64,000 nt of DNA, taken from positions 1 through 64,000 of the forward strand of contig JAGCDQ010000050.1 in NCBI GenBank assembly GCA_017651245.1, in the 5' to 3' direction. Numbering within the stretch: position 1 is the stretch's first letter; the number at the start of each line of letters is the position of its first letter. The notes beneath the pieces are model-generated. The model was not told the DNA's origin and did no database searches. It saw only the letters and a list, made by a program, of their open reading frames with translations. A program made the translations under genes and the position numbers. Positions 16,130 to 50,724 of this stretch are shown here, piece after piece. Origin of the DNA: Bacteroidaceae bacterium. GTDB lineage: Bacteria; Bacteroidota; Bacteroidia; Bacteroidales; Bacteroidaceae.

Positions 16130-16894
16130 TTATAAGAGGGTCTTTAGTGCCTCCTCATTTCCACCCTTCAGCACCACACGTTTCTCCTTGTCAAGAAGAT
16201 AAAGTGACGGCGTGTGAGGCACATAATATTCCCCTTTCAGATCGTTCACATCCTTGCGTACCACCTTGAGATGAGGGTTCTGCATGATAAGGGGCTCTTG
16301 CTTCAGTTGGGCTTCCAACCGTTGACAACGTCGGCAGTCGGGATCATAGAAGATGAGCAATGTTTGCTCCGTCTTGATGTCATACAAACGCACCTGCTTC
16401 CCATCAGAAGTCTTCACAAGAATATCAGCCGCACGACCACCTACTTGATTCTTCGCCAACTGTTCCAAGAGCCAACTGCGCTGAGGCGTCTCAGGCAAAG
16501 CTCGCAACAGATGAGCATACACCACATCACTATACAAGGGCGAATCGGAATCATCCAAATAATGAGCCATCAACCCTTCAAAGAATAGCAAAGCAGAAGG
16601 ATGTGCTACTAACGAATCAGCCAAGACCTCAGCCGCATATCTAGCAGAAACAGAATCAGCATGTTGCATGAAATTCAAAAAATCCACCATTCCTTGCTCC
16701 CCCACTTCACGGTTCATTGCTGTGCTGTCAGCAAAGGCATAGTCCTGCCAGAAATGCTCCAGTAGATACGCCATCCTAGCCACTGGCTCTTCCACTTCAT
16801 CAGGAATCTTAGGATAAGGGAAGTCTGTCTCCTGTGCCCTGACACTCAGCACACAGAAGAGCAGCCCTAAAATGGTATAGATAGTCTTGTTCAT
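16130..16894 (-). CDS. DUF5106-like protein with C-terminal thioredoxin fold
   Basis: 254 residues. Signal peptide (about 1-20), an all-helical N-terminal region of the DUF5106 type (about 25-150), then a thioredoxin-like domain with the redox motif CRRC (in FYDPDCRRCQRLEAQL) and a later cis-Pro block PHTPSLYLLD. So a periplasmic thiol-disulfide protein. Its ATG is 2 nt after the stop of the 2880-residue giant protein, so it is the last gene of that operon. The giants contain scattered cysteines (for example YGGCRMANV, YCGGN), which makes a role in their folding possible but unproven. Confidence 0.8.
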   Translation of the reverse strand: MNKTIYTILGLLFCVLSVRAQETDFPYPKIPDEVEEPVARMAYLLEHFWQDYAFADSTAMNREVGEQGMVDFLNFMQHADSVSARYAAEVLADSLVAHPSALLFFEGLMAHYLDDSDSPLYSDVVYAHLLRALPETPQRSWLLEQLAKNQVGGRAADILVKTSDGKQVRLYDIKTEQTLLIFYDPDCRRCQRLEAQLKQEPLIMQNPHLKVVRKDVNDLKGEYYVPHTPSLYLLDKEKRVVLKGGNEEALKTLL

Positions 16895-16896
16895 AC

Positions 16897-19800
16897 TTAT
16901 GGACCTGGGGTTGGATCTGCTTCAGGTGTCGTAGATGTCTCTACCTTCTTTCCAATCTGCACATTCGTATCACCAGTCACCTCAGCATTATTACCACCAC
17001 CATAGATGTTACCACGAATATCGGCACCAAGGACTGTATGAGTTCGTTCCTCTGATGTTGTTGCACTTTCTACTCCTTGCACCACCTTTGTAAGAGGGGT
17101 TTCGAACACTACATCATCACCAGTTTGGCTACCAATATTCACATGCGTATTGCCCTTCACTTTGGCAGCATTACCGCCACCAAAAACATTGTAAATAGCA
17201 CCCATCTTATTAGCATCGTGACCAGGTAATATCACACTGATACTCTTTTCCTCAACAACTCTCTTTCCATCATTATCATGTACGAAGCTATCTTCACCTT
17301 CTCCATCCTTATTTCTTTGATATTCATTGAAAGTGATAGTCTTAGTTGTTTGGGTATAAGCATCTTTGGCGTACTTACCTTCAGACACGTTGATATTCAC
17401 GTAGGTATCACCCTCCACCACAGCAGTTTCTCCGTAGCCACCACCATAAATATCACCAATGCTGGTAAACGATTTCACGTTCAATGTTGGACCATGCTCA
17501 CCCGATGGTGCCGTGTAGGGAGCCTGATTACCACCGCCATAGAGTTGACCGATAATAAGAGGCTTACAACCCGTTTCTTCAATATTTACCGTAATTGTAC
17601 CCTGAATCTTTCCATTCACGTTGTTGCCACCAAACACTCGGTCGAAAGTGCCATTTGTAATAGTGAGCACCACATTATCTTGGATGTCAGCATCCTGTGC
17701 ACCGCCGTATGCCGCTTTTAATCCAGGGATACAAGCCATCAACAATTGCGCCTCAGCGTCCATCGGGGCACTTTTACCACCACCGTAGGCCTCATCCACA
17801 CAGAAATCACATCCCTCCAAATCTTGGAGCATGGTCACAGCTGTCTGGCGCACATTACCCTTTGTGTTCGATCCACCAAACACACGATGAATTTTTCCTC
17901 CATAAATCGTCACAGAAGCTTTACCTGAACCATAAACATAGTTTTCCACAAAACCACCTTCCGCACCTTCATCTTGTCTCTTTTCTTTAGTATCATAGGT
18001 GTCCTCTACCTCTGAATAATCTTTGAATCCCACATTGGCACCGGGATTTGGTTTTGTCTCACCATTCACAATAATATCATCTAAACCGTTTCCACCACCA
18101 AACACCTCTTCTATCTCATACGTGCCGTTAATGGTTACATTCGTGGCTGGCGTAGAGGCTGCATTACCACCACCATACACCTGTCTAATGCTAGTTTCTC
18201 CACAACCATCAATGATAACATGAGTCTGAGCAGTATCAGCAATCGCTTTCATGTCAGGCATGTAAGCAGCCAAATTTCCACCGCCATAGACAGCTTCCAC
18301 ATGGTAATTATGGTCACTATTATTCTCACTATCCAAGTTTTCAGAAAGGGTGCCCAAATGACCATCCCATCCCTGAGTCTTATAGACATGAACAGTTACA
18401 GCACTTTGTGGGCTACCATTCAGGTTATTGCAACCAAAGATATTCCCCTTCACCTTGCAATCTCCATAAGTGGTAGTTTGTCCTGATATCGTCGGTTTAT
18501 TCAGTGTCACAAACACATCACCATACACCTTAGCCTCAATAGGAGTTACAGCCGCTTGACCTCCTACTGCATCCTTAGCCAATTGCCCCAATCCACCACC
18601 ATAGACATTACGGTTGATTGTGCCACCCGTTAGATTGACGTTGGTTTTGAATATAGCATAATATGTGGCAGTTTCATTCGCAGGCGTTTCGTCTGTAATT
18701 AATGTATATGTATCACCAGACTTCGTATAATAGCCTTTTACCGGAGAACCATTTAACAATTCGGTAAGCGTCACGTATTTCGTGCGTTCACCATTATGCC
18801 AATGTGAGGAGTTCGTGTTAGCCAGTGCACCACCGCCATAAACTTCTTGGTTCACGATACCGCCATTGATGTTGACATCCACACCACCCAAGGTAACACC
18901 TCGCTGACCGCCGCCATAGACAGAGCCATTGACGGTGGTGCTACCACCAATAGTTACATAGGTATTGCTGGCTAAGCCCAGGGTTGGAAGGAACGCAAGA
19001 TATTCGTCCTCTGTTGTGTAATATACCCAAACAAACTTGGGTCCTTCATAATTATCGGGATAAGTTTCATAATAATCCCAATATGTACCTTGTTCTTTTA
19101 CTACTGGTTTGTTTGTTGTTGGATCTATTATAACTTCTCCTGTTTCAGGATCTATTTCTTTAGGAATATTTGCCTCGAGTTGCATGCTCTTTGATCTATC
19201 ATCACCAGAAGCCACATAAACAGGCGTGACTCCCTTGCAGGAACCAAAAACATTTCCTGTACCATCTACGCCACCTGTTCCTATGACAGCATTGTCTTTG
19301 ACAGTGACGATACATGTTCCACCACCTTTTGGCTTTGTCGGTAATCCGCCCTCGACTTTAAATCTTCCCACTGAAGCAATCTCACCACCACCATAGACAT
19401 TGACTCCTACCTTGGCAGCACCCTGAACGGTGACTTCAGAGTTGCCGCGTACCAAAGCCGAGTAGCCATGTGTCGCCAAGCCTGCTCCACCACCGAAAAC
19501 GCTGCCCGTGATGTTGGGTTTACCTGTTCCTGTTTCTTCAGATGTTCCTATCACCACCTTCGCATCATCTTCCACGCGACCCACTTCACCGCCGCCATAG
19601 ACAGTACCATATACCGTTCCATCAGTGATGCTGACATTAGTGGCGTATACGATAGCCTTCTCACACCACCATGTTTTATCAGAACCTCTGCCTGCTCCAA
19701 ACACATTGCCGTGCCTGGATGGATCTGAAGTACTCGCAAGACCTATCGTTCCACCAGAGATTATAACATTACATCTGCCAGTGTTAGTGTTAGTGCCAGT

Positions 19801-22800: not shown

Positions 22801-25539
22801 GTCGTAATAGGCACCTTGCGAAAATATGCGGCCACTAACCGAGTATTTATCTTTGTCAGTACAATAACGGTCAGCAAAGTTATAAGGTGGATATTCGTCC
22901 TCATCATGAGTCGTACCAGAATAGTCGAGAACATCCTTTATGAAATGTCCTTGAGTACCGCCAGAGAACCCAGTTATCTTCCAACCTGTGACCACTTTGT
23001 TTTTAGTACAGTTACCTGTGCCTACTTCATTATAATAGGGCAGACGGACTGTCCGGTAATTGAAATGATTGTGGGCTAAATCCTTGTCATAAACTGTAAG
23101 AGTAGTCGGATAATTTGAATTAATCGCGGCGCCAGTTGGCTTGTTCGCACCACCAGTTGTAGTGTTTGACTCGTTAATCGTTAACGATATCGTTCCTAAA
23201 GTCGGGGCATCTTCATAATTAATAACCGACGGATAATAGTCTTGCACTTTAAGTATAGGATACGGCTTGTCAGCAGGATCCAATACCCACTTCGCCATTT
23301 GACAGGCATTACCTATTCCTTTGCCTTTGTTGGGGTCGTCCGTAGCATACCACGCAGCTAACTCTCGGTTGCTGTTCAGTATATTACGGAAAAACTCAAA
23401 GCGTGTCAGGTATTTCTCTTCAGCTGCCAGGGCACAATTATAGGCAGTGATACGGTTGTTTCTGCTATAATCGGCATCGAAACGGTAGTAGTTGTAGCCA
23501 TTCAGATTGCTAACATTGGTGATTTTGGATCCGCCGTAAATAGGTGAAATGTTCGTGCCTGAAGTGATTTCACCATAAAACATACAGTTCATCACCATGG
23601 TGCGCAAATCGCTTCTTGTCGAGGAGAAGCTATTATAACCCACAATACCTGCACCCCAAGTATTGCCACTAACCGTTGCAAAACTATAACAGTTGATAAC
23701 ACGTGAGCTGCCATCAAGCCGACCTACGATACTACCGGCATTGGTGCCACTGATAGTACCGCTCTTTACGCCACAGTTATAGATGCGTGTGTCACCGCTT
23801 GCTTCATTGCAGATTGCCCCAACATTAGTACCACCACTGATAGAGACGTTGTCAAGGATCACGTTGTTAATCGTACCACCATTGACACTATTAAACAATG
23901 GTTTAGTGAGTCCACTAATAGTAAATAATCCACCATCAAAAGTGCCAGAGAAATTACTGATATCACCTGTATAACTGCTGGCATCGAAACTAGCGGTGAC
24001 TTTACAGTCGTCGGTCGCCATCATATTATTCAAGTCACCCACACTACTGATGTTAAGAGTAAACCTCACACTCATTTCACTTGGGCAAGACTCATCTTTT
24101 CCATCTTCTTTGGCGATGACCTTAATAGTAATTACTCCACTACTATTAGTTAAAGAAAATGGTGCCGTATAGTGCGTGCTATTGGTTGATGGCGAGCTCC
24201 CATCAAGTGTGTAATAGAAATTACCCAAGCCTGTTATGGAAATCTCGTTACCATTACGGATTATAGTTGGACTAAGAGTTTTAGCAGTAAAAGAAGAAGA
24301 CACGATATTTTCACATCTATTACTACTATAATAAGAAACAGCCCGAATGATTGTACTTGAATTCTGAACGAAAGGCTCAGAATAAAGCGTCCCATTCGTC
24401 TTACTCGGTTCCGTTCCATCCGTTGTATAATAAATGGCCGCCCCTTCTGATGTAATAGTAATCTCATTTGTACACTCGTCAGTGACTGTGATAATGGGGT
24501 CTGGTGGTGTTAAGGTTGTTGGTTCAATTGCTTTCGAAGCTACCTCTGTAAGCACCACTCCATAACGTTCCACGACAACTTTGAGAATTCCTGATGATTC
24601 AGCAGCATAAGTACCGGAATCTATGATAGGACTTGATGCTGTAGGATCCGCTTGTGTACCATCACCAAATTCGTAACGTATATTGTAACCTGCAGGTAAT
24701 CCATTATTTTCTGTAATAGTAACCATACCATAATTATCATCGTTGATGGTAGGAGCTTTAAGTAAATTAGAATGGAAAGACCATAGAGGCGTTCCAGAAG
24801 AATAAAACTGTATCAAACCTGGTCTGTCTTCTCCTGGTCGTGGAATTGTCGAATTACTAGTATTAGACCATGTCAGCCATGCCCTGTCAGCACCCTGTGC
24901 ACTATTAAATGAATAGCCCGACGTAGGGTTCACATTGTTCAGTCCTGGATATGGTGCTATTTTGTAAGGGCTACTACTATTATACAAAACGAGGTAGGTA
25001 AAATTGACATTACTAGGTATATCAGCAAGCCACACATCTCGGTCACCATATGCCTCCTTCTCTCGTATAACTACATACTTGTTCAGTTTAGGATTAATAA
25101 GCTGGATAGTATTAGGTTCTGAGGTGGCAATATTCTTAACGACCCAATGGGAATAAGTGTTATCAAAAGGGCCGTATTTGACTCCATTTTTATCAACTTC
25201 ATTCACTGATACATCATTGGAAGTAGTCAGATACTGATTTCCCGTTGTACTATTAACTGTAACAGATGGCCAAAGATACCAATTACCGTTATTGTTTTTG
25301 ATATAATAGACTCCGTCAGGCACTTTAGGTGTGGTCTGTCCCCACACATTCACGCCCATCAACATCAACATCAAAAACAGGAGTGTTCGGAGAACATAAG
25401 TTCCTTTAAAATAGGTTCTCAGTTGGGAAAAACTTTTTTTCCAGTTAGGAAAATATTTTTTCTCAGTTAGGAAATAAAAAAATCCCATCTTCATTTCTAT
25501 CTTATCATTCATATCGTATGTCATATCTTTCTTCTTCAT
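16897..25539 (-). CDS. Giant YGGG-repeat surface protein with chitobiase-type domains (2880 aa)
   Basis: N-terminal leader of unusual length: about 48 charged residues before the hydrophobic stretch (49-64) and a likely cleavage at VWG/Q (67). Then a lectin-like beta region opening DGVYYIKNNNGNWYLWPS, two CHB_HEX_C-type beta domains (about 345-420 and 425-490; YYTTDGTEPS and YYTLDGSSPS), a GLUG-like segment (about 510-650), an unassigned beta region, and from about residue 1200 to the end a solenoid of units like VYGGGExxxVxxNTxVxI. Ends in TSTTPEADPTPGP with no T9SS tail. The ATG overlaps the stop of the upstream giant by 4 nt (ATGA). Function unknown; an adhesin-like role is inference. Confidence 0.8.
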   Translation of the reverse strand: MKKKDMTYDMNDKIEMKMGFFYFLTEKKYFPNWKKSFSQLRTYFKGTYVLRTLLFLMLMLMGVNVWGQTTPKVPDGVYYIKNNNGNWYLWPSVTVNSTTGNQYLTTSNDVSVNEVDKNGVKYGPFDNTYSHWVVKNIATSEPNTIQLINPKLNKYVVIREKEAYGDRDVWLADIPSNVNFTYLVLYNSSSPYKIAPYPGLNNVNPTSGYSFNSAQGADRAWLTWSNTSNSTIPRPGEDRPGLIQFYSSGTPLWSFHSNLLKAPTINDDNYGMVTITENNGLPAGYNIRYEFGDGTQADPTASSPIIDSGTYAAESSGILKVVVERYGVVLTEVASKAIEPTTLTPPDPIITVTDECTNEITITSEGAAIYYTTDGTEPSKTNGTLYSEPFVQNSSTIIRAVSYYSSNRCENIVSSSFTAKTLSPTIIRNGNEISITGLGNFYYTLDGSSPSTNSTHYTAPFSLTNSSGVITIKVIAKEDGKDESCPSEMSVRFTLNISSVGDLNNMMATDDCKVTASFDASSYTGDISNFSGTFDGGLFTISGLTKPLFNSVNGGTINNVILDNVSISGGTNVGAICNEASGDTRIYNCGVKSGTISGTNAGSIVGRLDGSSRVINCYSFATVSGNTWGAGIVGYNSFSSTRSDLRTMVMNCMFYGEITSGTNISPIYGGSKITNVSNLNGYNYYRFDADYSRNNRITAYNCALAAEEKYLTRFEFFRNILNSNRELAAWYATDDPNKGKGIGNACQMAKWVLDPADKPYPILKVQDYYPSVINYEDAPTLGTISLTINESNTTTGGANKPTGAAINSNYPTTLTVYDKDLAHNHFNYRTVRLPYYNEVGTGNCTKNKVVTGWKITGFSGGTQGHFIKDVLDYSGTTHDEDEYPPYNFADRYCTDKDKYSVSGRIFSQGAYYDVPEGVTGITIEPYWGTAVYLSDPTYDVAYPKGYGNNNASAVFVSNMGDRYVGGNTVSINDDNQVVYTAFSSALGQVSSSGTVYDNAIVLVGNYHHYWGQNSPSSGSKKFTIMSADLNNDCEPDYGFIVQHGTARQNISPIRFDFINSPGLGMIQKVETDNAIPKHGIWCPLGWFEVTNTTLIQFTQFEYDRGSKPAGSPLILLGGIYDQFITARQNVANSTEYIHLGSNIWMKEFCNGLHTAGGNSHTTRHIPISVTGGEFESFYLTGTFQPNVNSVTDHAECYINGGKFGDMAGAGQEQLKGDVTWLIDHADITNFYGGGINGQKPVTGNIYVEINNSQVGLYCGGPKFGNMQSNKKVTTKAKGSTFDNFYGAGYGGTSYFRDMAEDATGGNDWDTWVGHYTRKYATGKGISTEYECEFIPYSGGQSGQPNYVGRFYVLYASLSLAETKNVESTLEDCHITGSFYGGGKLGRVDGDITSTLNNCTVGANVYGAGFSASVEKVNVVPLGTKMKVNPAYNASVGVFTDGIYPDGEEYTWTHAASVSEDSEFDDTNKYIYTTVDLTTLGVVTGDVTLNITGTTTVGKSVYGGGEESNVEGNTQVNISGGTITQNVFGGGQGKADNFTCDKAMVGVVDEGISGTGTENDPYIPLDGGTTVNITNGTVEGDVYGGGEVGRVERNTSVTIGEAGNTTLTPVIKGHVFGAGAGVETHGYSALVRGNATVTIQGQAQVWQNVHGGGEKASVGRYNVRLPGDTQHTEVKVGMPYSLKAGGKCTVNILDAATIGKDDVEESGDIYGAGQGIRPSWNNNSGDENRSKRMVNKTTDHTDSNADSWDYYVDKDGNQDTRYVWEYFDSNDDYLLYVETLARASETDVIIGGKKETTGESAGNITTSSNAPIIKGTVYGGSESGFVYYSTEVNIKKGKIDGDVFGGGKGLASFAEAGRVKRNTNLTISDGEIHGNVYGGGSLGDVGNITKSADYNYTWKKNDGSTANILGNNSITGTNTNTGRCNVIISGGTIGLASTSDPSRHGNVFGAGRGSDKTWWCEKAIVYATNVSITDGTVYGTVYGGGEVGRVEDDAKVVIGTSEETGTGKPNITGSVFGGGAGLATHGYSALVRGNSEVTVQGAAKVGVNVYGGGEIASVGRFKVEGGLPTKPKGGGTCIVTVKDNAVIGTGGVDGTGNVFGSCKGVTPVYVASGDDRSKSMQLEANIPKEIDPETGEVIIDPTTNKPVVKEQGTYWDYYETYPDNYEGPKFVWVYYTTEDEYLAFLPTLGLASNTYVTIGGSTTVNGSVYGGGQRGVTLGGVDVNINGGIVNQEVYGGGALANTNSSHWHNGERTKYVTLTELLNGSPVKGYYTKSGDTYTLITDETPANETATYYAIFKTNVNLTGGTINRNVYGGGLGQLAKDAVGGQAAVTPIEAKVYGDVFVTLNKPTISGQTTTYGDCKVKGNIFGCNNLNGSPQSAVTVHVYKTQGWDGHLGTLSENLDSENNSDHNYHVEAVYGGGNLAAYMPDMKAIADTAQTHVIIDGCGETSIRQVYGGGNAASTPATNVTINGTYEIEEVFGGGNGLDDIIVNGETKPNPGANVGFKDYSEVEDTYDTKEKRQDEGAEGGFVENYVYGSGKASVTIYGGKIHRVFGGSNTKGNVRQTAVTMLQDLEGCDFCVDEAYGGGKSAPMDAEAQLLMACIPGLKAAYGGAQDADIQDNVVLTITNGTFDRVFGGNNVNGKIQGTITVNIEETGCKPLIIGQLYGGGNQAPYTAPSGEHGPTLNVKSFTSIGDIYGGGYGETAVVEGDTYVNINVSEGKYAKDAYTQTTKTITFNEYQRNKDGEGEDSFVHDNDGKRVVEEKSISVILPGHDANKMGAIYNVFGGGNAAKVKGNTHVNIGSQTGDDVVFETPLTKVVQGVESATTSEERTHTVLGADIRGNIYGGGNNAEVTGDTNVQIGKKVETSTTPEADPTPGP
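18943..19602 (-). repeat. Internal supermodule, copy B, in the 2880-residue protein
   Basis: Coding repeat of about 220 residues, from VYGGGEVGRVE to TYVTIGG. Shares with copy A the order GAG-THGYSALVRGN, GGGExASVGR, CxVxxxDxAxIG, SGDxxRSKxM, WDYY, VWxY and a final IGG. Confidence 0.75.
20167..20801 (-). repeat. Internal supermodule, copy A, in the 2880-residue protein
   Basis: Diverged partner of copy B, about 1.2 kb away; HGYSALVRGN is identical in both. Between the two lie other VYGGG units. Confidence 0.75.
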
Positions 25540-28500
25540 TTCACCGTAATCTTTTTGTTATACTTGCCACCTGCAGCACGGATGATGTAAACACCTGTAT
25601 TTGGTATTTGAGTTTCGATGGTTTCACCTGGCTGGATGGTGAACGAAGCGATGGTCTGACCGCCAGTATTGATGATAAGCACGTCGGTCGCATCTTGGAG
25701 TGAAGACTCTACACCAACAAGGAGTTTCTGTGTGTAGAATCTCAATTCGCCACCAACTTCTCCCTTGGTCGGGTCGTGATCCTCGAAAGCGAATGATGTG
25801 TCACTCATATCGAAGACGATGCGTTCAGCCATTCTTCTCTTAGCACCATTACCCGTAGATGCCTCAACAAAGTATGGACGGAAGGCATCCACCTTGACGG
25901 CATCACCCTCTGCTGGCACCTTGTCGTAACTGCCACCATCCGATGCAAGCACATAGCTGTTCGTTCCAGCTTCCAACTCCATATTCAGATAACTTGGCAT
26001 AAAGGCATATTTGTCTTGTTGCACACCTGTAGCACCATCACTTACTTCAATCGTGGCATTCTCAGCCGATGCAAACGTAATCACCTGCTTGGCAAGATCC
26101 TTGTCAACTTTCGACCAGCCAGCGGTATGGGCAGGGCTAAAGTTGCCACTCAAGTCGAATTCATAGTAGGTCGCACCTGGGAATCCAATGATGTATGGTA
26201 TGCCTGATGTTAACCGGGCATAATCATTGTATGTACGCGAATCGTTATAATATGTTTGGTATGTGTCATTGTTGGCATCCTTGAGGTTATGACCCGCCTT
26301 CGCCTCATAATAGTAATCCCAGAGGAAGGTGTTGGTCACCGTCTTGTCATCATCAGCAGCAGTGCCCGTTGGGTACTCAAAGTTTGCTGTATAAACCTTA
26401 TTGTCTGACGAGAGGGTTCCTCCTTCCTTGAACTCACGCAACCAGTACTCATGGCCCACTTTGGTCTTCGAAGTCTTATCGACAGATGCGCTACCACTAT
26501 AGAAGTGGGTGATCTCACCCTTCACATTCGTAGTGACGATGTCGGCAGTGAATGGCAGGCTGACACCATCCCATCCCTTCTCAATATCCACGAATTTGTC
26601 AGGAGCGCGCTGGTACCACATACGCTTGTCACCCGTGAATTGGTATTTAATCGGTGCGTTAAAGTCATGCTTGTCCACCAGGAAGTGGTCGAGCGTGGAG
26701 ATGTAGCCATCACCTGACTTCTGTACCCAGTGACCCGACATCTGGTCATAATTTGAACTGCGGTCCCATTCAGCTACAGTGCGGTAAGTCTCCTTGCCTG
26801 CCACATAACCCTCACCAATGGCATCACCTTCCTCATATGCAAAGTCATGTAATTTGGCACTAACCACGTTGGCAGTCTTCAGAGAAGCGGTCAATGGTGC
26901 CTCGGAATCGGTGCTCTTTGCTGCTGTGTAAACGAGGAGGTTCTTCGTAAGATTTACATTCTGGAATGCCGTAAGGCCGCCATCGTCAAGCAGCGGAGGA
27001 TAGAAGGCGCCACCCTCTATATTGTTGTATGGTGCCGATGTTTGTAATCCAACCTTATAACCATTAGCCACTACATCGCCGTTACCTCCCGTAAAGTCGA
27101 TAGCCGTCATACCCTTGTGGGCAATCTTGGTAGCATCACCATTCATCGTCTGAGCAAAGACAGCATTTGAATTAAAATGAGTCATCTGCATCTTTCCGCT
27201 ACGGAAGTAAGCTGGTGCACGATAGACGCGATTACTGCCTTCAGTGGTCAATAGACGTTCGTTCGCCTTGTTGATGATGGATGGCAAATCTTGATGCGGA
27301 CTTCCTTCCACATAGCCATAAGTCAGCGTCTGTCCAAAGAAGAGGTAATCGTCTGGCCAGATAGGTGCCCAAGTGACAATCTTGTTACCATCGGCATCCA
27401 GGTCTCCACTTTCCTGACGGCGGATATTATAACCCTCTGGAATGGTGCCATCGGCATAGCGGAAGTCACCATCGTAGAAACGATGCTCCACATAACCCAA
27501 TTTAGGTGTCTCAGCGGTACCTTGAGCGGTACCTTGAGGAGTGTAATAGGTATAAGTGGCAGGATAGTACGACGTGCTGGTGACATTTTGAGTGCCAGTC
27601 TCATTCGTAGGCAACGTACCGTCAACATTTGCAGGGAAGTACTGATATGACTTGCCAGATGTGAGTCCACTACCATCATAATATCGCTTGCCAAGATAGA
27701 AACCATTTAAGTTATAAGTCAGTTCACCGTCATAGAATGCCTTGTCAGACATCTTGCGAGCATAATTGGCAGCAGAACCATTATCATTATAGAGCGCTGC
27801 ATTGCTTTCTGGATAGTAACAGTTCACTACTTGTGTACAGCCTGGATGTTCAGGATCATTTGGATTGCCAAATACGGCATTCACCTTCGAAGCACCATCA
27901 GGCAGTGCGGTTGCATCCGACTTCACCCAACAGTTCTCCACGAAACCATCACCAGCATCAGCCACACCAGCCGAAGTAAACGAGCCTGTAACGCCCAGGT
28001 TATAGACATTACCACAGAGTTTACCAAAGAGCGACGAGGTAAGACCACTGATGGTGTGACCATCACCATGGAGATTACCACCGAAACATGGATCCGTATC
28101 TTCTATGCCAGCAGCAATAGAAGTGCGAGCAGGAGATCCTTCTGGCACAGAGCCGTCTATGTCGGTGCGCAGAATGATATCAAGGTTCTCAGCACCTTTG
28201 ACATGACTGTCTAGAGGAGCATGACCTACAAAGGTCCCCGATTTGATCAGACCATTTTCATCTAACTCTGACTCCGATGGAGTGAGCAGACTCAAGTCGA
28301 AGAGGTTCTTCAGTTCATCAAGACCATTCTTGTCCTTACGTGGGTCGTCATTGGACAGAGATGAATAGTCATTGACGTATATCTTGCATGGACGATCCAC
28401 ATCAGCACGATCAATGTATAAGTGGTTCTCCTTATAACGCTCCATGATGTCACCCAAGTCGTGGTAGTTGGCCACGCGAACAGGCACACAGTTGGAGTAA

Positions 28501-37578: not shown

Positions 37579-38688
37579 TTAATTATAATCTAATACCGGT
37601 GGGTTATCCAAATCTGGGTCTGACAATACATTGAGGAAAGTGGGATTCACCGTCAGATTGACGGTTTTCCATTCACCTCGCGTTATATATCCATTAGGCA
37701 GTTTATTCTCTACCTTGCAATCTTCACGAATCAAGTTTCCCTTCCTGTCATAAACATCATATGTACAAAGAAGAACTAATGAGTTGATGTTGGTAGGTGC
37801 TGGTAATACCATCATCTTCTTTATTTCTTCCGAATTGGGCTCTGTTAAAACCTTTGCAGTAGTCGTTAATTCTAACCCCTCATGTTCAAAAAATGTAACA
37901 TTATTATTCCCTTCTCCTTTAAAATATGTAATATTGTCGATTGGCTTATCATCGGAAGGTTTCAAAGTAATTGCGGCTGAATAGGAGGAAGGCACGTCTT
38001 TTAGTTCCAGCTTCTTCAATCTAATTGTACGCAATTGGCTATAAGTTTCATCTATCTTAATGGTGAAACTAAGTGCGCCATAGAAATGGTGCAACAGCAT
38101 ATAAGCAAAATTCTGATTTTTAGGCTTTCCTTCGTATTTATAACTACCTGGCTTAAAATTGGCAGATACCGCTACTTGTTCAGATTCAGCCTGCTCAACA
38201 CCAACGATGAGACAGATATCTTTATCCGAAACAGCCTCTAATCCTTCCAACGTCATAATTGCACCATTAGCATAATAACTGCTGCTTCCTGCTAAATAAT
38301 CAATGGATGAACCTGTTACTGCAGAGGAGGGTGTGAAACCATAAATATAATAGGTTTCGCCCTCTTGTATCTTAAAGGCAGAACTCCATTTTGTTGTCGT
38401 TGCACTATATCTGAATGTAGCTTTAGCCGCACTTGGTTGTTCCCCGATGGTTGTCATATAGGCTGTAATGGGTGCGTCTGTATAAAAATGATAGTCTGAA
38501 GTGGCACGTGTCCCTAAACTTTCTCCGTTTCCATAGTTCTGTGAATAGGCAAACAGCTGGAGCGTTTCCTCTTCTTGCCGATCCTGCTCGGGGTCTTCAG
38601 AGCACGCAAACAGCAGACAGACCATCCCAGTCATGAGAAGTCCTGCCAGCATTTTGCTGTACCATTGTTCTATTTGTTTCCTATTCAT
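37579..38688 (-). CDS. Fimbrillin family lipoprotein
   Basis: 369 residues from MNRKQIEQW. Lipobox LLFAC (Cys 29), then an acidic linker and the motif GTRAT with Arg 61, the position at which fimbrillins of the Bacteroidales type V pili are cut by an Arg-specific protease. The following beta-rich body with YYIYGFTP and FYGALSFTIKID is typical of the Bacteroides fimbrillin-like superfamily (FimA/Mfa-like). Starts 22 nt after the preceding fimbrillin and is followed by the first giant gene, so it may be a tip or adaptor subunit; that is inference from order only. Confidence 0.78.
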   Translation of the reverse strand: MNRKQIEQWYSKMLAGLLMTGMVCLLFACSEDPEQDRQEEETLQLFAYSQNYGNGESLGTRATSDYHFYTDAPITAYMTTIGEQPSAAKATFRYSATTTKWSSAFKIQEGETYYIYGFTPSSAVTGSSIDYLAGSSSYYANGAIMTLEGLEAVSDKDICLIVGVEQAESEQVAVSANFKPGSYKYEGKPKNQNFAYMLLHHFYGALSFTIKIDETYSQLRTIRLKKLELKDVPSSYSAAITLKPSDDKPIDNITYFKGEGNNNVTFFEHEGLELTTTAKVLTEPNSEEIKKMMVLPAPTNINSLVLLCTYDVYDRKGNLIREDCKVENKLPNGYITRGEWKTVNLTVNPTFLNVLSDPDLDNPPVLDYN

Positions 38689-38710
38689 ACTTATTCTCTT
38701 GTATTCTTTT

Positions 38711-39922
38711 TCACCAATTATACAACTCACGGTTGTCTGTCACTTCTGTCCAAGGCTTCACAAAGACGGTCAGCACATCCAATCCTCCAGAACCATAGTA
38801 GGCGTAGACAATCCAAGAGTGATTGCGACTAAAACCGAGAGGCGTCACCATGGAGAAAGTCTTCGTCTGCTCGGTTCCCTCCTCCCCCATCTGATAAGAA
38901 ATGGTGCCACGAAGCATTTTATTAGTCTCACGAAAATAGAAAGGACCTATCTGGGTGAGTTCTTTTTTATCAGGTTCAGACACCGTTCCATTCACACCAC
39001 CATCAATCTTATCTTCATAATCTTGTGCTGTGGAGAAAACCAATGGGTCATAGACATAATTCGAAGGGTCTTCACTTTCTTTAATGGACGAAAGCGGATC
39101 TGAGCTGTCTATCAATGTTGTTACACCAGATACGTAAGTGCTCCCTATTCTATATGCGTTTCCATCATTTCCCAAGAAGAAATATTCTTCGGTTGGAAAA
39201 CCATAATCAACTTCCTCCACTTTACCATTCAAGGTAAGGCCTGTAATAATCAGTTTCTCGCTCTCTTCGACACCCTGCTGCTGACTAAATACAAAACGTA
39301 CCTTTGATACAGCTCGCTGAAGTTGCACTTTTGCCATACCTTCATAACTATCTGTTCCTATTCGGAGGACAGGATTCGTACCCACCACTTCCTGATTCAG
39401 CAAAACACCCGACATGGGCAGACCTGCTGTGGGCACAGACGACACTAACGTTGTCGTTGTCGTTCCAAAGTAATTAGTACCTATCATCGCGGCATCAAGT
39501 GTTGCACGAGTGGTCTCTCCGTCAAACGTCAGATTCACCGCAGCCGTATTAGCAGCCACATAAACATCCACATTGGGTTTGGTGGCTGCGTCTGCAAACT
39601 CCTTGCTCACAGCCATCTGATAAACCTTACCATCGGCTGTTGGCAATTCCGTTGGGCATAAATAGCCCACCAATTTCCCATCGTCATGCGCAAACACCCA
39701 AATCTGGAGCGAAGTGATGGCACTCTCACCCTCAATCGGATTCACCAACAGATCTCCCGCACGAGTGGGCATCGGTCTTTCAGGAGCATAGACATAGAAA
39801 GTGATGACTGTCGGACGTTCTTCCACCCCATTGTTATCATCATGATGAGAAGAACAAGCGGTCAGGAGCAGCATCAGCATGCTGCCCAACAACCATCCAA
39901 TATGTTTTGTCTCACACTTCAT
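38711..39922 (-). CDS. Fimbrillin family lipoprotein
   Basis: 403 residues from MKCETKHIG. Lipobox LLLTAC (Cys 23) and MPTRAG with Arg 54 as likely maturation site. N-terminal domain pattern ITSLQIWVFAHDDGKLVGY and VYVAANT is the usual FimA/Mfa-like N-terminal beta-sandwich; VQLQRAVSKVRF is the shared central motif of this superfamily. An in-frame start 57 nt upstream is rejected because it lies inside the preceding gene region and gives no signal peptide. Spacing to its neighbours is 17 and 22 nt. Likely an accessory or tip subunit. Confidence 0.8.
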   Translation of the reverse strand: MKCETKHIGWLLGSMLMLLLTACSSHHDDNNGVEERPTVITFYVYAPERPMPTRAGDLLVNPIEGESAITSLQIWVFAHDDGKLVGYLCPTELPTADGKVYQMAVSKEFADAATKPNVDVYVAANTAAVNLTFDGETTRATLDAAMIGTNYFGTTTTTLVSSVPTAGLPMSGVLLNQEVVGTNPVLRIGTDSYEGMAKVQLQRAVSKVRFVFSQQQGVEESEKLIITGLTLNGKVEEVDYGFPTEEYFFLGNDGNAYRIGSTYVSGVTTLIDSSDPLSSIKESEDPSNYVYDPLVFSTAQDYEDKIDGGVNGTVSEPDKKELTQIGPFYFRETNKMLRGTISYQMGEEGTEQTKTFSMVTPLGFSRNHSWIVYAYYGSGGLDVLTVFVKPWTEVTDNRELYNW

Positions 39923-39939
39923 CGCTTTAAACTCCTCTT

Positions 39940-41646
39940 TTAATCTAATTGTATATAGACAGGTTCTGTCTGTATCCATTTATTGACCAACTGCACCCCG
40001 ATTTCCAAACGAGGCGATAACAGATTAGGCATTACATTATAGGCACGCTTTAATGAGTTCTCTTCATCGAATTTCATCTTCACCTCTGTCACACGGTCTT
40101 GCGTAAACACACGATCCTTGTAAGCTATCTCAGTTGACTTATCAGCAGGATCCAATTTACCTATCAAGTAAAACTTTGTGTTGGGATAGATGATACCATC
40201 TTTACCCTCAAATGATTGTCCTGTTTTGTTTTCAAACTCAAGGATAATGGTCACTTTCTCGTTATTATGCGACTGCAAGACCAAAGTATTGGAAATGTGA
40301 CCACTGACATTATTATCATAGATAAATCGAAGGTCAAAATCTGTACTTTCTTCACCTTCTGGTTCTATTGGTTTAAAGTCATAACCCACAGTATGCTGCC
40401 CGCCAATGATGATACCTGTCAAAGGCATAGTTGCTTGGTAATAGGTGATGTCGTTTTCCTTACTATCCTTCAAGATCTTACCATCAGCTGCTTCCAACGT
40501 CATTTTCAATCGAGCTACCCCATACTGGATAGGGTCTTTCAGTGCCACCGCTTTGGTATTGCCACTCACAGGACTTCTGCCGGGATAGTTGGCTAATACT
40601 TGATTCCAAGTCTCCGTTGACGTTGAGCTATAGACACTCTTGGCTACCTCTTCATTCGATGTGTACAATTGACTGTTACCAAAATAGTAAAGCTCTGCAG
40701 GATAAGTAAAGCGAGCAATGGAATTGATGGCTACCTCCGTAGTGGCAATAATCTGCGGAACGAAAGCACCCTTGATATTATTCAACATCGCTTCGCTGTC
40801 CCATTTGAGCGCAGCAGCACCATCTGGCAAACCTATGCTGGCAGGATAGTTGCCAAGACTGGGAGTGCCAATGGCAGTAAGAATGGCGGTCTTAATATCG
40901 CTATCGTCCAACTTCTCTATTTCAGTCTTCAATTCATTCACGTAAGCGGTTACACTGGCTGAAGAACCTGCCAAAAGAGCATTGCTCTGATTGCCCTGAC
41001 CCGTGAAGTTCAGGTAGAAGGCACGCAGTTTAGAATCAGTCGTCGTTGACCAACCTGTTGCACGAGCAATGGTCGTCATATAATCTGCAATGGTCTGTGC
41101 ACCTGTGGGAGCACTTGTTCCCGTGTACATCTGTTCCAGTTCAAAAGAGATATTGGCAGGAAACATGTCAGTTGGATAAGTTGCTTTGAGTGTACCATTA
41201 TAAGCCTTATTGGTCATCTCTGTATTCGTTGATGAAACAGAAGGAATGGCTCTACCATAAAACAGCACAGCGTTCGTGCCCCTCATGAAAGAACAGTTGT
41301 TATAATAGTAAAACCAACTAACCGACTTTGGGTAGTTATCTTCTGCCAGTCCACTCACAAAGAAGGCTTTCGGTCGATCGGTCTTTTGCACCCCATTGGC
41401 TGGATTGCTTACCGCAAAGGGAATGATCATGACATCCTGCATGCCACGATAGGGAGTGCTTTCAATCTGTAGCACCTCATTGGCCATACGAGTCTGAGGT
41501 TGGGCAGATTGCGACAAAGAGAAAGCTACACTGACATCGACACGGTCCTCCACTCCGTCATTGGGGGTATCATCAGACATACACGAACTGAGTGCCTGCA
41601 CTACCAGCACAGGCATCAGCATCATGTATGTTGTCCATCTTCTCAT
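39940..41646 (-). CDS. Mfa1-like fimbrial lipoprotein, accessory copy
   Basis: 568 residues from MRRWTTYMM. Signal peptide with lipobox ALSSC (Cys 22) and the maturation motif PQTRMA (Arg 53). It belongs to the same paralogue set as the genes at 41671, 43772 and 46809: a YRGMQDV block near residue 70, NNCSFMRGTNAVLFYGRA, then NYPASIGLPDGAAALKW, and GIIIGGQHTVGYDF. Ends KWIQTEPVYIQLD. Together with its paralogues it would form shaft or tip parts of one fimbria. Gap to the next gene 17 nt. Confidence 0.8.
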   Translation of the reverse strand: MRRWTTYMMLMPVLVVQALSSCMSDDTPNDGVEDRVDVSVAFSLSQSAQPQTRMANEVLQIESTPYRGMQDVMIIPFAVSNPANGVQKTDRPKAFFVSGLAEDNYPKSVSWFYYYNNCSFMRGTNAVLFYGRAIPSVSSTNTEMTNKAYNGTLKATYPTDMFPANISFELEQMYTGTSAPTGAQTIADYMTTIARATGWSTTTDSKLRAFYLNFTGQGNQSNALLAGSSASVTAYVNELKTEIEKLDDSDIKTAILTAIGTPSLGNYPASIGLPDGAAALKWDSEAMLNNIKGAFVPQIIATTEVAINSIARFTYPAELYYFGNSQLYTSNEEVAKSVYSSTSTETWNQVLANYPGRSPVSGNTKAVALKDPIQYGVARLKMTLEAADGKILKDSKENDITYYQATMPLTGIIIGGQHTVGYDFKPIEPEGEESTDFDLRFIYDNNVSGHISNTLVLQSHNNEKVTIILEFENKTGQSFEGKDGIIYPNTKFYLIGKLDPADKSTEIAYKDRVFTQDRVTEVKMKFDEENSLKRAYNVMPNLLSPRLEIGVQLVNKWIQTEPVYIQLD

Positions 41647-46739: not shown

Positions 46740-46752
46740 ACTCTATAGAGGA

Positions 46753-46784
46753 GAGTTAACCCCTTTGATGATTGGGGTTAACTC
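46753..46784 (-). other. Perfect 11-bp hairpin between the major fimbrillin and the anchor gene
   Basis: GAGTTAACCCC (46753-46763) and GGGGTTAACTC (46774-46784) around a 10-nt loop. In the minus-strand transcript no U run follows, so it is not a standard terminator; it would suit a 3'-stabilising or processing structure. T6 follows on the plus strand only, where no gene ends. Confidence 0.7.
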
Positions 46785-46808
46785 ACCATTTTTTACGTCA
46801 ATGTAATA

Positions 46809-49109
46809 TTATTGTCCAAGAATAATATCATCAAAACTCAAACCTGTAGACCATTGTACATCCACAGAAAGACCCAAAGACATCTGGGCAGAGCGTAAGT
46901 CTGGAACAGCCACCAATGCATGCTGTAAAGACGTAGCATCAAGTGCAAAGTTGGCGGTTGTCATATAATCCTGAATGAAAACACGACGCTCCTTAATAGT
47001 ACTGCCGTCTGCATTATAAGGAGGAAGGGCATAATTCGTAGGCCATTCTATTCCTTCAGAACGTGAACTATAATTAGTATTATCAGCCTTCTTGTTTGGA
47101 TTCAATTGACCAACGATATAGAAAGTTCCTTGGTTGCGGATGAGGTTATTCTGACCCCAGAAATCCTTACCAGTAAGGTTCTTGAACTCAAGTGCTATAT
47201 ATACGATTCTTTGATCATTTCCTTTGTACTTTTCATCCCAGTTGTCCCAAACAAGGGTATAGCAAGGAGTTGAGGCATCTCCTCCAGTCGCAGAAGAGGC
47301 TGCAGGAATAGCAGTAGAAGGAAGATCTTTGTCATAAACCATCGCAGCAAAACTGGGTTCGGCTGATTTTGCGACATAGTTCCATCCCATGACTGCTTCT
47401 TGACCACCTATAAGGACACCTGTAAGTTCAAATTGACCAGCCTTTGTAACATCAAATGTATTATTTAATTCATTCGCACCTGATCGGGCCTCTTGAATAT
47501 TGTGGTTATTGTCTTGCAATTCGTTTGTTTTATATCTGACAGTTGTCTTCAGCAAAGCTGTACCATAATTGATGTTATCTTTCATAGCTACACTACGGGT
47601 AGAAGAAAGCACATGCTTATCCTTATCCCAAGCCTTTGACCCTGTGCCAGTCATACCTTCTGCCCATGAGGCATCATCAACCCAAGTGGCAGGACCATCA
47701 GGATAGTCGGTTGTTGCATGTGTATCATCGGTTGTACGAATGGTACTATTTCCAAAATAGCAAAGTTCTGGTGGATACATATAATTCTTGGGATCAAAAG
47801 AACCTGCTGCTCCAGGCGTATTGCCACCCATAGCATATGTCGGAACATTATCCTTATAATGATAGATATATTTGTTCTCACCATCTTTGCTGAAATTCAA
47901 AATGGTTGCGCCTGCTGGTAAATTGAAATTAAGAGGGAAGTTGTTCAAATCTTCTGTCACCAAATTGATGGCGGAAGCCTCTAATCCTGCTAATCCCGCA
48001 ATAGAAGTTTTGTCTGTGTTTGAAGTAATATCCTTAAATTCACAAGCTGATTCGGGATTTTTGAATGCCCTTTCAATGTTTGCAGTAATACCTTTTGCCA
48101 CCTCCTTAGCAACGGCTTCACTCAAGCTCGTTGGAGTACAATTAGCCACTTTATTGATAGCTGTATAGAGGTCGCCAATCATACGTGTGACGGCAGCACT
48201 ACTACCAGCACGGAGTTCGTCTGGATAAATCGTGTTGAAAGTAACAAATGCTTTACCAAGAATCTCACCTGCCGTGGACATTTCCTCATCGGTGGTAGCA
48301 GGGTCATTGGCTTGGATCTTCAAGTGAAAGGTTCCAGGCTCGGTGGTTCCCTCTTCCACATAGTCTGACCACAGCAACGTTCCACTCTTGCTTTGGCCTT
48401 GATAGGTTACATTGTATTCAACAGATGTTTGAACAATCTTTGACAATACACTTGCTATCAAATTCTCATATTGTTCAAACGCTGTTCGACCATGAGTAGC
48501 AGGAGTTCCACTAACTGGGTCATTGTCTACAATTCTGACAAGTCTGAACTCATTCTGGGAAATATCCTTGTTAACATTCCAAGTGATTTCACCTTGTTTG
48601 TTACTAGATTCTGTTTTGATTGCCTTTCCCCAAAACATCAAGTTATTGGTTCCTGTAGGTAAAGCCAACTCTATAACACGTCGTGATTTAGGCTTAGATT
48701 GATCTGTATTGTCTGGATCAATAGATTCCGCACCCATAATAGTTCCTAACGTAAAATACTTATCAGCAACTGTTGGGGTTGTGACGGCTTGATCACCTGT
48801 CCCTGTTGTGACGGAAGAAACAGCGACAGTTTTTCCATCAGTAGGCAGTTTAAAGGCCATCAGTTGAACATCCTCAATACCACGGAATTTTTCGGCAATA
48901 GTTGCCTGCGTGTTAGCAGAAGTCATACGTGTCGTGGTGGTGTTGCCAGTTGAGATATTAAACACAAAGTCCACTGGTACCTCTCCCGTTTCAGAGTTAT
49001 AGCCAGGGTTCACATTTGTCAAATCCTCGTTGTCTGCACAAGAGGTGAATCCCATTGTACCTGTGAGTGCTATCGCGCCCATCAAAGCGTAGATAAAATT
49101 CGTTTTCAT
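46809..49109 (-). CDS. Mfa1-like fimbrillin, probable major subunit
   Basis: 766 residues, the largest paralogue and the first of the series. Lipobox GFTSC (Cys 24), maturation motif TTTTRMTS (Arg 61), then FRGIEDVQLMAFKLP. Shared blocks follow: FPLNFNLPAGATILNF, MYPPELCYFGNS, GVLIGGQEAVMGWNY and the tail LGLSVDVQWSTGLSFDD. In type V pili the major subunit is cut after the Arg and polymerises by strand exchange with its C-terminal strand. It precedes the FimB-type anchor, which suggests the shaft protein; not proven. 55 nt after the DUF3575 gene. Confidence 0.82.
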   Translation of the reverse strand: MKTNFIYALMGAIALTGTMGFTSCADNEDLTNVNPGYNSETGEVPVDFVFNISTGNTTTTRMTSANTQATIAEKFRGIEDVQLMAFKLPTDGKTVAVSSVTTGTGDQAVTTPTVADKYFTLGTIMGAESIDPDNTDQSKPKSRRVIELALPTGTNNLMFWGKAIKTESSNKQGEITWNVNKDISQNEFRLVRIVDNDPVSGTPATHGRTAFEQYENLIASVLSKIVQTSVEYNVTYQGQSKSGTLLWSDYVEEGTTEPGTFHLKIQANDPATTDEEMSTAGEILGKAFVTFNTIYPDELRAGSSAAVTRMIGDLYTAINKVANCTPTSLSEAVAKEVAKGITANIERAFKNPESACEFKDITSNTDKTSIAGLAGLEASAINLVTEDLNNFPLNFNLPAGATILNFSKDGENKYIYHYKDNVPTYAMGGNTPGAAGSFDPKNYMYPPELCYFGNSTIRTTDDTHATTDYPDGPATWVDDASWAEGMTGTGSKAWDKDKHVLSSTRSVAMKDNINYGTALLKTTVRYKTNELQDNNHNIQEARSGANELNNTFDVTKAGQFELTGVLIGGQEAVMGWNYVAKSAEPSFAAMVYDKDLPSTAIPAASSATGGDASTPCYTLVWDNWDEKYKGNDQRIVYIALEFKNLTGKDFWGQNNLIRNQGTFYIVGQLNPNKKADNTNYSSRSEGIEWPTNYALPPYNADGSTIKERRVFIQDYMTTANFALDATSLQHALVAVPDLRSAQMSLGLSVDVQWSTGLSFDDIILGQ

Positions 49110-49164
49110 ACTTTTGAAAATTTTGTTATTTGTTTATACTCTATTTCGTTCTATATTCGTTTGA

Positions 49165-50724
49165 TTATCTTGTCAGTTTCCTTAGGTTTTCTTGTGCATC
49201 AGCATTGCCTTGTTGGGCAGCGAGACGGAAATAGTTGAGGGCGGCATCCCTGGCACCAGTGTTCCAAAGAGCGACGGCGAGTGCGTTCCATGAACGCGCG
49301 TCACCTTGCACAGAACGAAGCAAAGGAAGTGCTTCTTCGTATCGCTTCTGTTGGATAAGTTGGGTGGCTTGATTGATGGTCTTCGCCGCTGTGTCAGGCA
49401 CGTAATCGAAGTAAATACGCAGATAACCTGAGTTGCGTTGGTCAGCCAACAGATGTTGCTTGATGTAGTTGAAGGTGCGACCACCATTCAATTGACGGAG
49501 TTGACGTTCACGACGTGTGAGGTCTGACTCAATGTCGATAATACGAATGGCCTCACGCAAGTCTGCCCGACGACCACCATCGGCTTCCGTCACACTCGCT
49601 CCTGCGGCATACACGATGTCGTTGAGTTGGTCGCGCAATTCAGCCCAAGCTTCACCTCCGTTCGCCACATCGAAGAGAGAATCGGCAGCTTCTGGTATCT
49701 GCTGCTGCACATATTGCTTAAGCGCGCTGGCACGATTGACAGACAGTTTCTCGTTGACAGCGACTGGTCCTTCGATGGAAGCCAAACCCACAATCTGGAT
49801 GCGACGCACGTTGCTGGTCGTGTCCGCCATAATCTGGCGTGTGATGTCCACGATGCGGTCAAGCGTAGCGGCATTGTCGCGGAAATCGCGACTCAAGAGG
49901 CTCTTGCCGACTGGGAAGTGGACATAGAGTGCACCTTTTTCCTTGCGCAGCACACGGGTTCGATCATAAGGACGATACCCTGACACATGCTCCAACACTG
50001 GGTTCTCACGTTGCAACACACCAGCCTTGCCTGTATTATCAACCACTGGATGAACCGCCAAAACGGGGACAGGAGGCGGTGTGGTGTCGATAGGCGTGAT
50101 GATGATTGGCTCCTTCTGCTTCTTGGGAACCTTCTGATAGACAACATTAAGCGTCAGCTTGGGAATCAGGAATGGCTTGTTCTGACGTCCTTCGTAAGCA
50201 CCACAATGTGCGCACGCATACTTTTTTGCCCAAGTGTAGCCAACGCCCAGACCAAGTTCACCTTCCAAACGGAAGTAGCGATTGAGTCGCCAAGAACGCC
50301 CATAGAACGCACCCAGACCGACAAGATCACCCTGTACACGATGATCGCGTACTGTCTGGTAGAGGCTGAATGGGAAAGTGACATGTCCTACATTGTAGTG
50401 ACTATAAAATACATTCGTTCCCCAATAAGAACGGTGGAAAGTGCTGTCGGTCCAATAGCGCAGTTCTGGTGCAATAAGGAAATGCTTCCACTTGCGAGTC
50501 GTCTTGTCGTCAAGAGGCCAAGGACGGTAACCAGCATTGAGACCCAGCGTCCAATGCTGCGAGATTCGAGCATCCAAACCGATGTTTGGCGTTCCCGAAA
50601 TGTCATAAATCAAGTTATTGCGCACAGCAAAGTTCTCTTGTGCGTAGCTCTTGCCGCCCCATAGCAAGAAGAACACTATCATTAGAAGGACGACATTCTG
50701 AGTTGTCTTTTTTTCTCTTTTCAA
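49165..50724 (-). CDS. DUF3575 outer-membrane protein with OmpA-like and TPR-like regions
   Basis: 519 residues. Signal peptide to about 28 (SYAQ), a DUF3575 barrel-like domain (about 31-190; NLIYDISGTPNIGLDARIS and YRPWPLDD are typical), a Pro-rich linker, an OmpA-type peptidoglycan-binding-like domain (about 275-360; IVGLASIEGP, NEKLSVNRASALKQYV) and a short TPR-like end (about 455-515). The family often stands at the head of fimbrial operons in Bacteroidales and may tie the structure to the cell wall. The first codon is TTG, 5 nt after GGGGAAGG; the next ATG (50682) would cut into the signal peptide. Confidence 0.82.
   Translation of the reverse strand: MKREKKTTQNVVLLMIVFFLLWGGKSYAQENFAVRNNLIYDISGTPNIGLDARISQHWTLGLNAGYRPWPLDDKTTRKWKHFLIAPELRYWTDSTFHRSYWGTNVFYSHYNVGHVTFPFSLYQTVRDHRVQGDLVGLGAFYGRSWRLNRYFRLEGELGLGVGYTWAKKYACAHCGAYEGRQNKPFLIPKLTLNVVYQKVPKKQKEPIIITPIDTTPPPVPVLAVHPVVDNTGKAGVLQRENPVLEHVSGYRPYDRTRVLRKEKGALYVHFPVGKSLLSRDFRDNAATLDRIVDITRQIMADTTSNVRRIQIVGLASIEGPVAVNEKLSVNRASALKQYVQQQIPEAADSLFDVANGGEAWAELRDQLNDIVYAAGASVTEADGGRRADLREAIRIIDIESDLTRRERQLRQLNGGRTFNYIKQHLLADQRNSGYLRIYFDYVPDTAAKTINQATQLIQQKRYEEALPLLRSVQGDARSWNALAVALWNTGARDAALNYFRLAAQQGNADAQENLRKLTR

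Follow-up and report, generated by a model that had tools for sequence, protein, structure and literature searches.

Does a pilus locus that runs on into two giant repeat proteins encode one surface structure, or two that merely share an address? The question is raised by a gene cluster on contig JAGCDQ010000050.1 of a gut bacterium related to Prevotella, within a window of 64,000 nt, which is the whole stretch of DNA analysed here. Eleven long open reading frames (ORFs) of the minus strand span exactly positions 16130-50724, and in the order of transcription we call them ompA (a DUF3575 gene), f2, f3, f4, f5, f6, f7, f8, gA, gB, and trx (Table 1). The two giants, gA and gB, carry 16 and 22 [YFH]GGG motifs, respectively. 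The spacing between f8 and gA is 43 nt, gB overlaps gA by 4 nt, and the widest gap in the cluster measures 69 nt (f2-f3); overlaps of 20 nt (f7/f8) and 40 nt (f6/f7) arise only when the longest ORFs, with upstream starts, are taken. The ORFs and their spacing (-4 to 69 nt) agree with the original prediction, made from this DNA alone, of an 11-gene cluster on a single strand. Because the same gene order recurs in many related species, the pilus genes and the giants probably build one surface structure, as far as sequence can tell. Our tentative proposal, which we hold at slightly under an even chance, is a type V pilus that bears a giant of two parts at its end or has it alongside, the giant being exported by the type IX secretion system (T9SS) and joined to the pilus through f8.

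Gene order and pilin signals in related genomes

A match to gA was found in 22 of 101 genomes, the window's included, and 19 of these 22 have a DUF3575 gene farther 5' on that contig, in the same orientation. The three exceptions are a contig that starts inside its DUF3575-OmpA homolog (genome G001) and two genomes (G014 and G039) that have an upstream f8 and no DUF3575 gene on that contig stretch. Eighteen clusters were drawn in addition to that of the window. In the 18 drawn clusters where the N-terminal profile of gA had a match (one profile set), f8 lies directly 5' of gA in 16, and 17 have an upstream DUF3575-OmpA homolog. The exceptions to the adjacency of f8 and gA are G029 and G033, in which a B-type giant stands between the two; G030 has no match to the gA N-terminus. 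These three clusters are divergent and largely unlabelled by the proteins of the window. Downstream of gA, a gB-type ORF follows in 15 of the 18 clusters besides the window, in G054 with one ORF between them.

Larger sets of loci gave the same picture. The search for named loci returned 399 stretches that match the pattern, 356 of which encode a relative, and the best 80 of the 356 were used. Sixty-seven of these homologs are labelled Prevotella or Prevotellaceae and 13 Bacteroidales or Bacteroidaceae, and many come from ruminants, the rumen and the reticulum being among the sources. Cultured carriers are also among them, such as Prevotella communis E15-14 and Prevotella sp. tc2-28. In 79 of the 80, the gene immediately 5' of gA is f8; at the exception (L149) the opposite-strand ORF found in the place of f8 is perhaps an artefact of ORF calling. 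Of 399 genomes sampled from the family, the window's included, 63 have the C-terminal module of gA at an E value of 1e-30 or better, and they fall in 9 of 30 genera. Outside the window's genus there were 49 match rows, 34 of them with a long frame away from the contig start, while G054, drawn before, and 14 shorter pieces or pieces at contig edges were left out. Here f8 directly precedes gA in 33 of the 34 loci, L208 being the exception. The locus sets are not independent, since 6 of the 34, and also 7 stretches from the window's genus, share their records with loci among the 80. A DUF3575 gene was in view in 52 of the 80 named loci, which reach only about 10 kb upstream, and in 18 of the 34. 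DUF3575 alone is a weak marker, as it is present in 300 of the 399 family genomes, and adjacency and f8 were used instead. Many upstream genes of the loci from other genera were not recognised by the window profiles; ten such proteins from three loci comprised six with a match to Mfa_like_1, one to DUF3575, one to DUF5119, and two without a match.

The gene order kept across many species rules out a chance neighbourhood. Giants found mostly without fimbrial neighbours were what the original prediction had named as evidence against itself, and for the gA-type giants this is not what we saw. The order that it proposed to look for elsewhere (DUF3575, fimbrial genes, giants) does recur in related species.

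The leaders of f2 and f4 to f8 carry what reads as the type V pilin signature, which the anchor f3 lacks. A Cys in lipobox context is kept in at least 85% of the members of the f2, f3, f4/f5, f6, f7, and f8 alignments, and 31 to 37 residues after the lipobox a conserved Arg follows in all of them except f3 (counts in Table 1). In f3 no Arg column reaches 70%, and TR is absent from all 17 members, 13 of which have some Arg in that stretch. In a cruder count by regular expression, a lipobox plus TR was found in 346 of 661 same-strand ORFs of at least 250 amino acids upstream of a gA-type start, compared with 0 of 73 opposite-strand ORFs, 3 of which have a lipobox plus TK. This count covers three partly overlapping locus sets, in which a gA start was recognised in 75 of 80, 23 of 34, and 18 of 19 loci; a recognised start with no lipobox-plus-TR gene upstream was seen in 12, 3, and 0 loci, respectively, of the 75, 23, and 18. 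A review describes a surface clostripain that cuts type V pilins (PMC12632263), and the genome of the window has one clostripain-family match (PF03415, 157.8 bits).

The two giants and their open ends

In gA, the first repeat directly follows a leader that by eye resembles a signal peptide, and all 16 compared orthologs align in every 200-amino-acid bin. The C-terminal sorting domain listed in Table 1 scores 17.4 bits, below the cut-off, in a scan of the whole protein; SprA of the T9SS is encoded in the genome (2645 bits; the search covered SprA). Pfam and NCBIfam scans gave no enzymatic domain in gA, and no match to it was found among solved structures. gB is built differently at both ends. 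An N-terminal leader is followed by Fn3_assoc domains, an M26_N-like stretch, and then repeats, the final motif of which ends 31 residues from the C-terminus. Searches of NCBIfam (E up to 1) and Pfam (E up to 0.1) gave no sorting domain for gB, and one of an unknown type may exist. Residues 519-618 align to residues 141-242 of a solved IgA1 protease (4.4e-7), and Pfam and NCBIfam scans gave no peptidase catalytic domain. The C-terminal part of gB (2201-2880) aligns in 13 of 13 compared orthologs and residues 1-200 in 4 of 13; gB genes that are split (for example in G003, G026, and G036) did not enter this comparison. It is plausible that the repeats of both giants form a solenoid.

That gA and gB are a single gene split by a frameshift is unlikely in the window and in G033, because in both the downstream giant begins, by eye, with a leader-like stretch of its own. 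The G003 cluster (L043) is a separate case, as its gB is spread over three overlapping frames (856, 546, and 1556 amino acids), through decay or assembly errors, and may be a single gene split by frameshifts. G034 and G013 have an extra protein (1,158 or 1,198 amino acids) with a gB-like N-terminus and, by eye, an apparent sorting domain of its own at the end. The clusters of G014 (L161-L162) and G054 (L065) have a gene between gA and gB that presumably resembles a REP-associated/IS200-type transposase.

The ends of the giants are reciprocal. Forty-five giants were listed, of which 42 are uncut by the end of the locus. Automatic classification placed 18 in the class with a sorting domain and a repeat at the start, 15 plus 2 in the class with no domain and an end at most 40 residues from a repeat motif, and 4 plus 3 among the others. 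These seven others were re-sorted by eye from their C-termini: the gA-type giants of G030 and G054 have a sorting domain, one protein each of G015, G029, G054, and G036 has a GAG-type repeat end, and the protein of G039 is unclassifiable. The final tally, made partly by eye, is thus 20 giants with a sorting domain, 21 without one and ending in repeat, and 1 unclassifiable. Nineteen of the 20 with a sorting domain start with the repeat by residue 51, the exception being a fused protein of G030, and 1 of the 21 with a repeat end (G003) is a piece of the gene in three frames. Giants open on both sides occur in G024, G026, and G036.

We also compared the end repeats directly. A profile of the first repeat of gA, built from 75 named loci, scores best, among the repeats past residue 100, on one near the C-terminus in 16 of 23 gB-type proteins, compared with 5 of 23 for a generic profile of internal repeats, and the mean relative ranks over 24 rows are 0.12 and 0.22, respectively. 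The test had 24 rows, and removal of the gA of G014, which was misclassified, left 23, two of them cut by contig starts. Little weight is given to this result, as the gB-type proteins are orthologs and not 23 independent events.

Homologs in which both halves lie on one chain also bear on the junction. G033 has a B protein (2,171 amino acids) and an A protein (3,229 amino acids); upstream of them lie a DUF3575 gene and a series of ORFs on the same strand, one with a weak f8 match. B and then A align, in that order, to one protein of G030 (6,296 amino acids) and to one protein of G029 (6,341 amino acids, contig C18). In G030 the alignment covers residues 1-1523 of B (47% identity, 1305 bits) and 680-2296 and 2294-3229 of A (27-29%, 448 and 337 bits); in G029 it covers 30-2167 of B (42%, 1589 bits) and 33-2301 and 2294-3229 of A (24-27%, 498 and 334 bits). 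Such fusions are evidence that the C-terminus of B and the N-terminus of A are neighbours, and they bear directly on that divergent lineage. The gA of the window is related to the A protein of G033. The fused protein of G030 is followed in its cluster (L071-L073) by another giant, of 4,515 amino acids, whose N-terminus differs.

Proposed assembly and its alternatives

In the assembly that we propose, f2 and f4 to f8 would reach the surface as lipoproteins and be cut at the conserved Arg, probably by the clostripain of the genome, while f3 would keep its lipid and anchor the pilus. The C-terminal sorting domain of gA would direct it to the T9SS for export, and the N-terminus of gA would present an open repeat edge. 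The C-terminus of gB, also an open repeat edge, may stack on the N-terminus of gA, and gB, which has no recognised sorting signal, may be exported together with gA. The variable N-terminal domains of gB would then face outward as a binding end, presumably an adhesive one. f8 would most likely dock the giant onto the pilus, much as Mfa3 is thought to link Mfa5 in Porphyromonas gingivalis.

The main rival is that gA, alone or together with gB, acts as an independent T9SS adhesin attached to anionic lipopolysaccharide (A-LPS), co-regulated with the pilus and not assembled with it. We regard this as quite possible, while leaning against it. Several points weigh against the assembly proposed here, and the first three of them speak for this rival. 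gA has a type A sorting domain, and for T9SS cargo of this type anchoring to A-LPS is described as common (PMC10202324); such an anchor would keep gA at the cell and off the pilus. G004 (L158-L159) has a solitary gB-type giant (3,265 amino acids, with the usual open-repeat end), accompanied within the 31 kb read by neither gA nor labelled pilus genes. On contig C18 of G029 (L172-L173) the fused giant comes before, not after, the DUF3575 gene and lipoprotein-like ORFs, which are followed by another long ORF. Position in a locus is also no proof of a single transcript, because mfa5 is reported to be transcribed separately from mfa1-4 in P. gingivalis (PMC5954841). f2, f4, f5, and f6 gave no match to a fimbrial family at E<0.001 in NCBIfam or Pfam, and a pilin fold is not confirmed for them by the families searched. 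The fused giants of G030 and G029 are 49.8% identical to each other and count as one lineage, a divergent one, and for the gB of the window the one-chain argument is an analogy, because the B half of G033 resembles gB in the repeats only. Against an independent adhesin stands the immediate neighbour of gA: f8 occupies that place nearly without exception (79 of 80 and 33 of 34), even where most other upstream genes are unrecognised by the window profiles. Mfa5, moreover, is a T9SS protein that is a pilus component.

It is also conceivable that gA and gB do not stack, that is, that they fold separately and have the ordinary edges of repeat proteins, gB leaving the cell by another route or with an unrecognised signal. 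The lack of a sorting-domain match in gB (Pfam, E up to 0.1; NCBIfam, E up to 1) fits this, as would a domain of unknown type, the generic repeat profile also ranks a repeat near the C-terminus of gB fairly high (rank 1 in 5 of 23), and the orthology of the gB ends takes independence from the 16 of 23. We nevertheless consider it improbable in view of the reciprocal open ends of 40 of the 42 giants (assigned partly by eye), the one-chain homologs of G030 and G029, and the uniformly conserved C-terminus of gB.

A wider generalisation would be that Bacteroidota make very long composite fibres by stacking separate giant solenoids end to end through open repeat edges, that the base, alone in having a T9SS signal, takes signal-less partners with interchangeable tips out with it, and that a dedicated adaptor fastens the fibre to a type V pilus or next to one. 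In this general form we find the idea rather doubtful. If gA and gB are indeed pilus components, a type V pilus can bear a tip complex of thousands of residues, and if gB exits with gA, the T9SS can export a signal-less protein as a partner. Interchangeable tip proteins would give variety in binding if the composite fibre is real.

Other features and comparison with known systems

Table 1. Features of the cluster in order of transcription, with positions in the window
Feature	Description	Position	Strand	Evidence or remark
ompA	DUF3575 protein, weak OmpA-like and TPR-like C-terminal parts, 519 aa	49165..50724	-	PF12099 9e-47
f2	Large lipoprotein, 766 aa, putative pilus subunit, unnamed family with f4-f6	46809..49109	-	Lipobox C24 invariant; R61 47/47
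f3	Mfa2/FimB-type anchor, 347 aa	45696..46739	-	PF08842 in 6/17 alignment members, best 7.8e-8
f4	Large f2-family lipoprotein, 635 aa	43772..45679	-	Lipobox; R61 18/19 (f4/f5 alignment)
f5	Large f2-family lipoprotein, 685 aa	41671..43728	-	phmmer to f4 about 280 bits; lipobox; R61 18/19 (f4/f5 alignment)
f6	Large f2-family lipoprotein, 573 aa	39940..41661	-	f2-f6 profile comparison probability 100; lipobox; R58 16/17
f7	FimA/Mfa-family fimbrillin, 422 aa, perhaps tip-type	38711..39979	-	PF06321 2.2e-6, above cut-off; R73 17/17
f8	Fimbrillin-like lipoprotein, 383 aa, proposed adaptor	37579..38730	-	Near-constant gA neighbour; R75 16/17
gA	Giant YGGG-repeat protein, 3,999 aa	25536..37535	-	First repeat motif at residue 27; conserved over full length
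gA sorting domain	T9SS type A C-terminal sorting domain	25539..25715	-	TIGR04183 25.5 bits, cut-off 23
gB	Giant YGGG-repeat protein, 2,880 aa	16897..25539	-	Variable N-terminus, Fn3_assoc, short M26_N-like stretch, repeats to near C-terminus
trx	DUF5106 and thioredoxin-like protein, 254 aa, facultative member	16130..16894	-	PF17127 1.4e-24; thioredoxin-like part below cut-off

The reading as a pilus stands in its main lines, and the family assignments of the pilus-type genes vary in firmness (Table 1). For the first gene, predicted as DUF3575/OmpA, the DUF3575 part is firm, and the C-terminal matches to OmpA (0.01) and TPR (7e-4) are under the curated cut-offs. f2, f4, f5, and f6 form one family, linked by the profile comparison of f2 with f6 and by phmmer between f4 and f5 and between f5 and f6. 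They had been taken for a major Mfa1-like subunit (f2) and three Mfa-like accessories; the lipobox and Arg signals are compatible with this and family matches above threshold do not back it, f4 alone having a weak N-terminal match to the Mfa1 model NF038041 (0.0038, below the cut-off) and f2, f5, and f6 not even that. The predicted FimB anchor, f3, is supported through the alignment members that match PF08842 Mfa2, while the window protein itself had no PF08842 match, in the whole-genome profile search either. Of the two predicted fimbrillins, f7 is well founded and has further matches below the cut-off (NF038041, 2.3e-13; the FimD tip model NF052322, 1.2e-12), and against solved structures its profile gave weak fimbrial matches, the best at 0.0016. 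f8 is weaker, with Mfa_like_1 matched by 1 of 17 alignment members (2.6e-5) and an E value of 0.12 for the fimbrial protein 3sy6 in the search of solved structures. Profile comparison of f2 and of f4/f5 with f7 aligned the leader region alone (probability 34 and 88), as did that of f8 with f7 (probability 96); the probability for f3 with f7 was 64. The f3, f2, and f6 profiles gave nothing useful against solved structures.

The last gene, trx, had been read as a thioredoxin-fold protein; it encodes a DUF5106 protein with a thioredoxin-like part that stays below the cut-off, and a homolog is present in 8 of the 18 other clusters drawn. The site scan of the minus strand gave no terminator-like site in the 43-nt gap between f8 and gA and a promoter-like site at 37610-37582, immediately 5' of gA; the scanned region has 29 promoter-like sites, compared with 27.3 in shuffles, which is no excess. 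Upstream of the cluster, an intergenic region of 966 bp contains four head-to-tail units of 21 nt, each palindromic (51054-51160), which are possibly binding sites of a regulator. Directly after the cluster, a SAM-II riboswitch (56 bits, 15825-15884, minus strand) precedes the S-adenosylmethionine synthetase gene (14402-15733). This gene, DUF4271, and HemD flank the cluster on one side, and an S46 peptidase, a polysaccharide biosynthesis protein, an arginine decarboxylase, and a topoisomerase on the other. Several of these flanking genes also adjoin related clusters in other genomes, and with such flanks a mobile island is unsupported.

Among known systems, the cluster resembles type V pili (FimA-E, Mfa1-5, Bacteroides fimbriae) in its lipoprotein precursors with a conserved Arg, its anchor without the Arg, and its FimA-family fimbrillin. 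It differs in the DUF3575 gene at its head, in the giants that follow, and in the large f2 and f4-f6 (573-766 amino acids), which fall in none of the fimbrillin families searched. Like T9SS type A cargo, gA has a leader peptide and a C-terminal type A sorting domain, in a genome with SprA; unlike such cargo, it has no enzymatic domain that we could find, a near-invariant link to f8, and a partner, gB, without a recognised sorting domain. The likeness of gB to the IgA1 protease (M26_N) extends over only about 100 residues. In open-licence PMC papers, a scope that does not cover preprints, we found no description of a system that joins a pilus to such giants.

The closest precedent is Mfa5 of P. 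gingivalis, a T9SS-exported ancillary tip protein of 1,228 amino acids that is encoded by the last mfa gene, sometimes in two tandem copies (PMC7835359, PMC8313007). The original prediction held that known mfa loci stop at accessory or tip subunits; this one ends in the large, T9SS-exported mfa5, and a large T9SS protein that closes a pilus locus therefore has a precedent. Mfa5 has von Willebrand factor (vWF) and immunoglobulin (Ig)-like domains, a variable N-terminal part, and a common C-terminal half (PMC8313007, PMC7835359), and Mfa3, its proposed adaptor, binds it in vitro (PMC5954841, PMC7835359, PMC8313007). gA is likewise a large T9SS-exported protein, to judge from its sorting domain, and its gene comes after those for the accessory fimbrillins in a type V pilus locus; tandem copies occur, and gB has a variable N-terminus and a conserved C-terminus. 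Pfam and NCBIfam gave no match to vWF or Ig-like domains in gA or gB, and for this reason we do not class gA as Mfa5. Compared with Mfa5, there are two chains, of 3,999 and 2,880 amino acids, both with YGGG repeats, the second without a sorting domain. The new features are the missing signal of gB, the giant size, the type of repeat, and the division into two chains.

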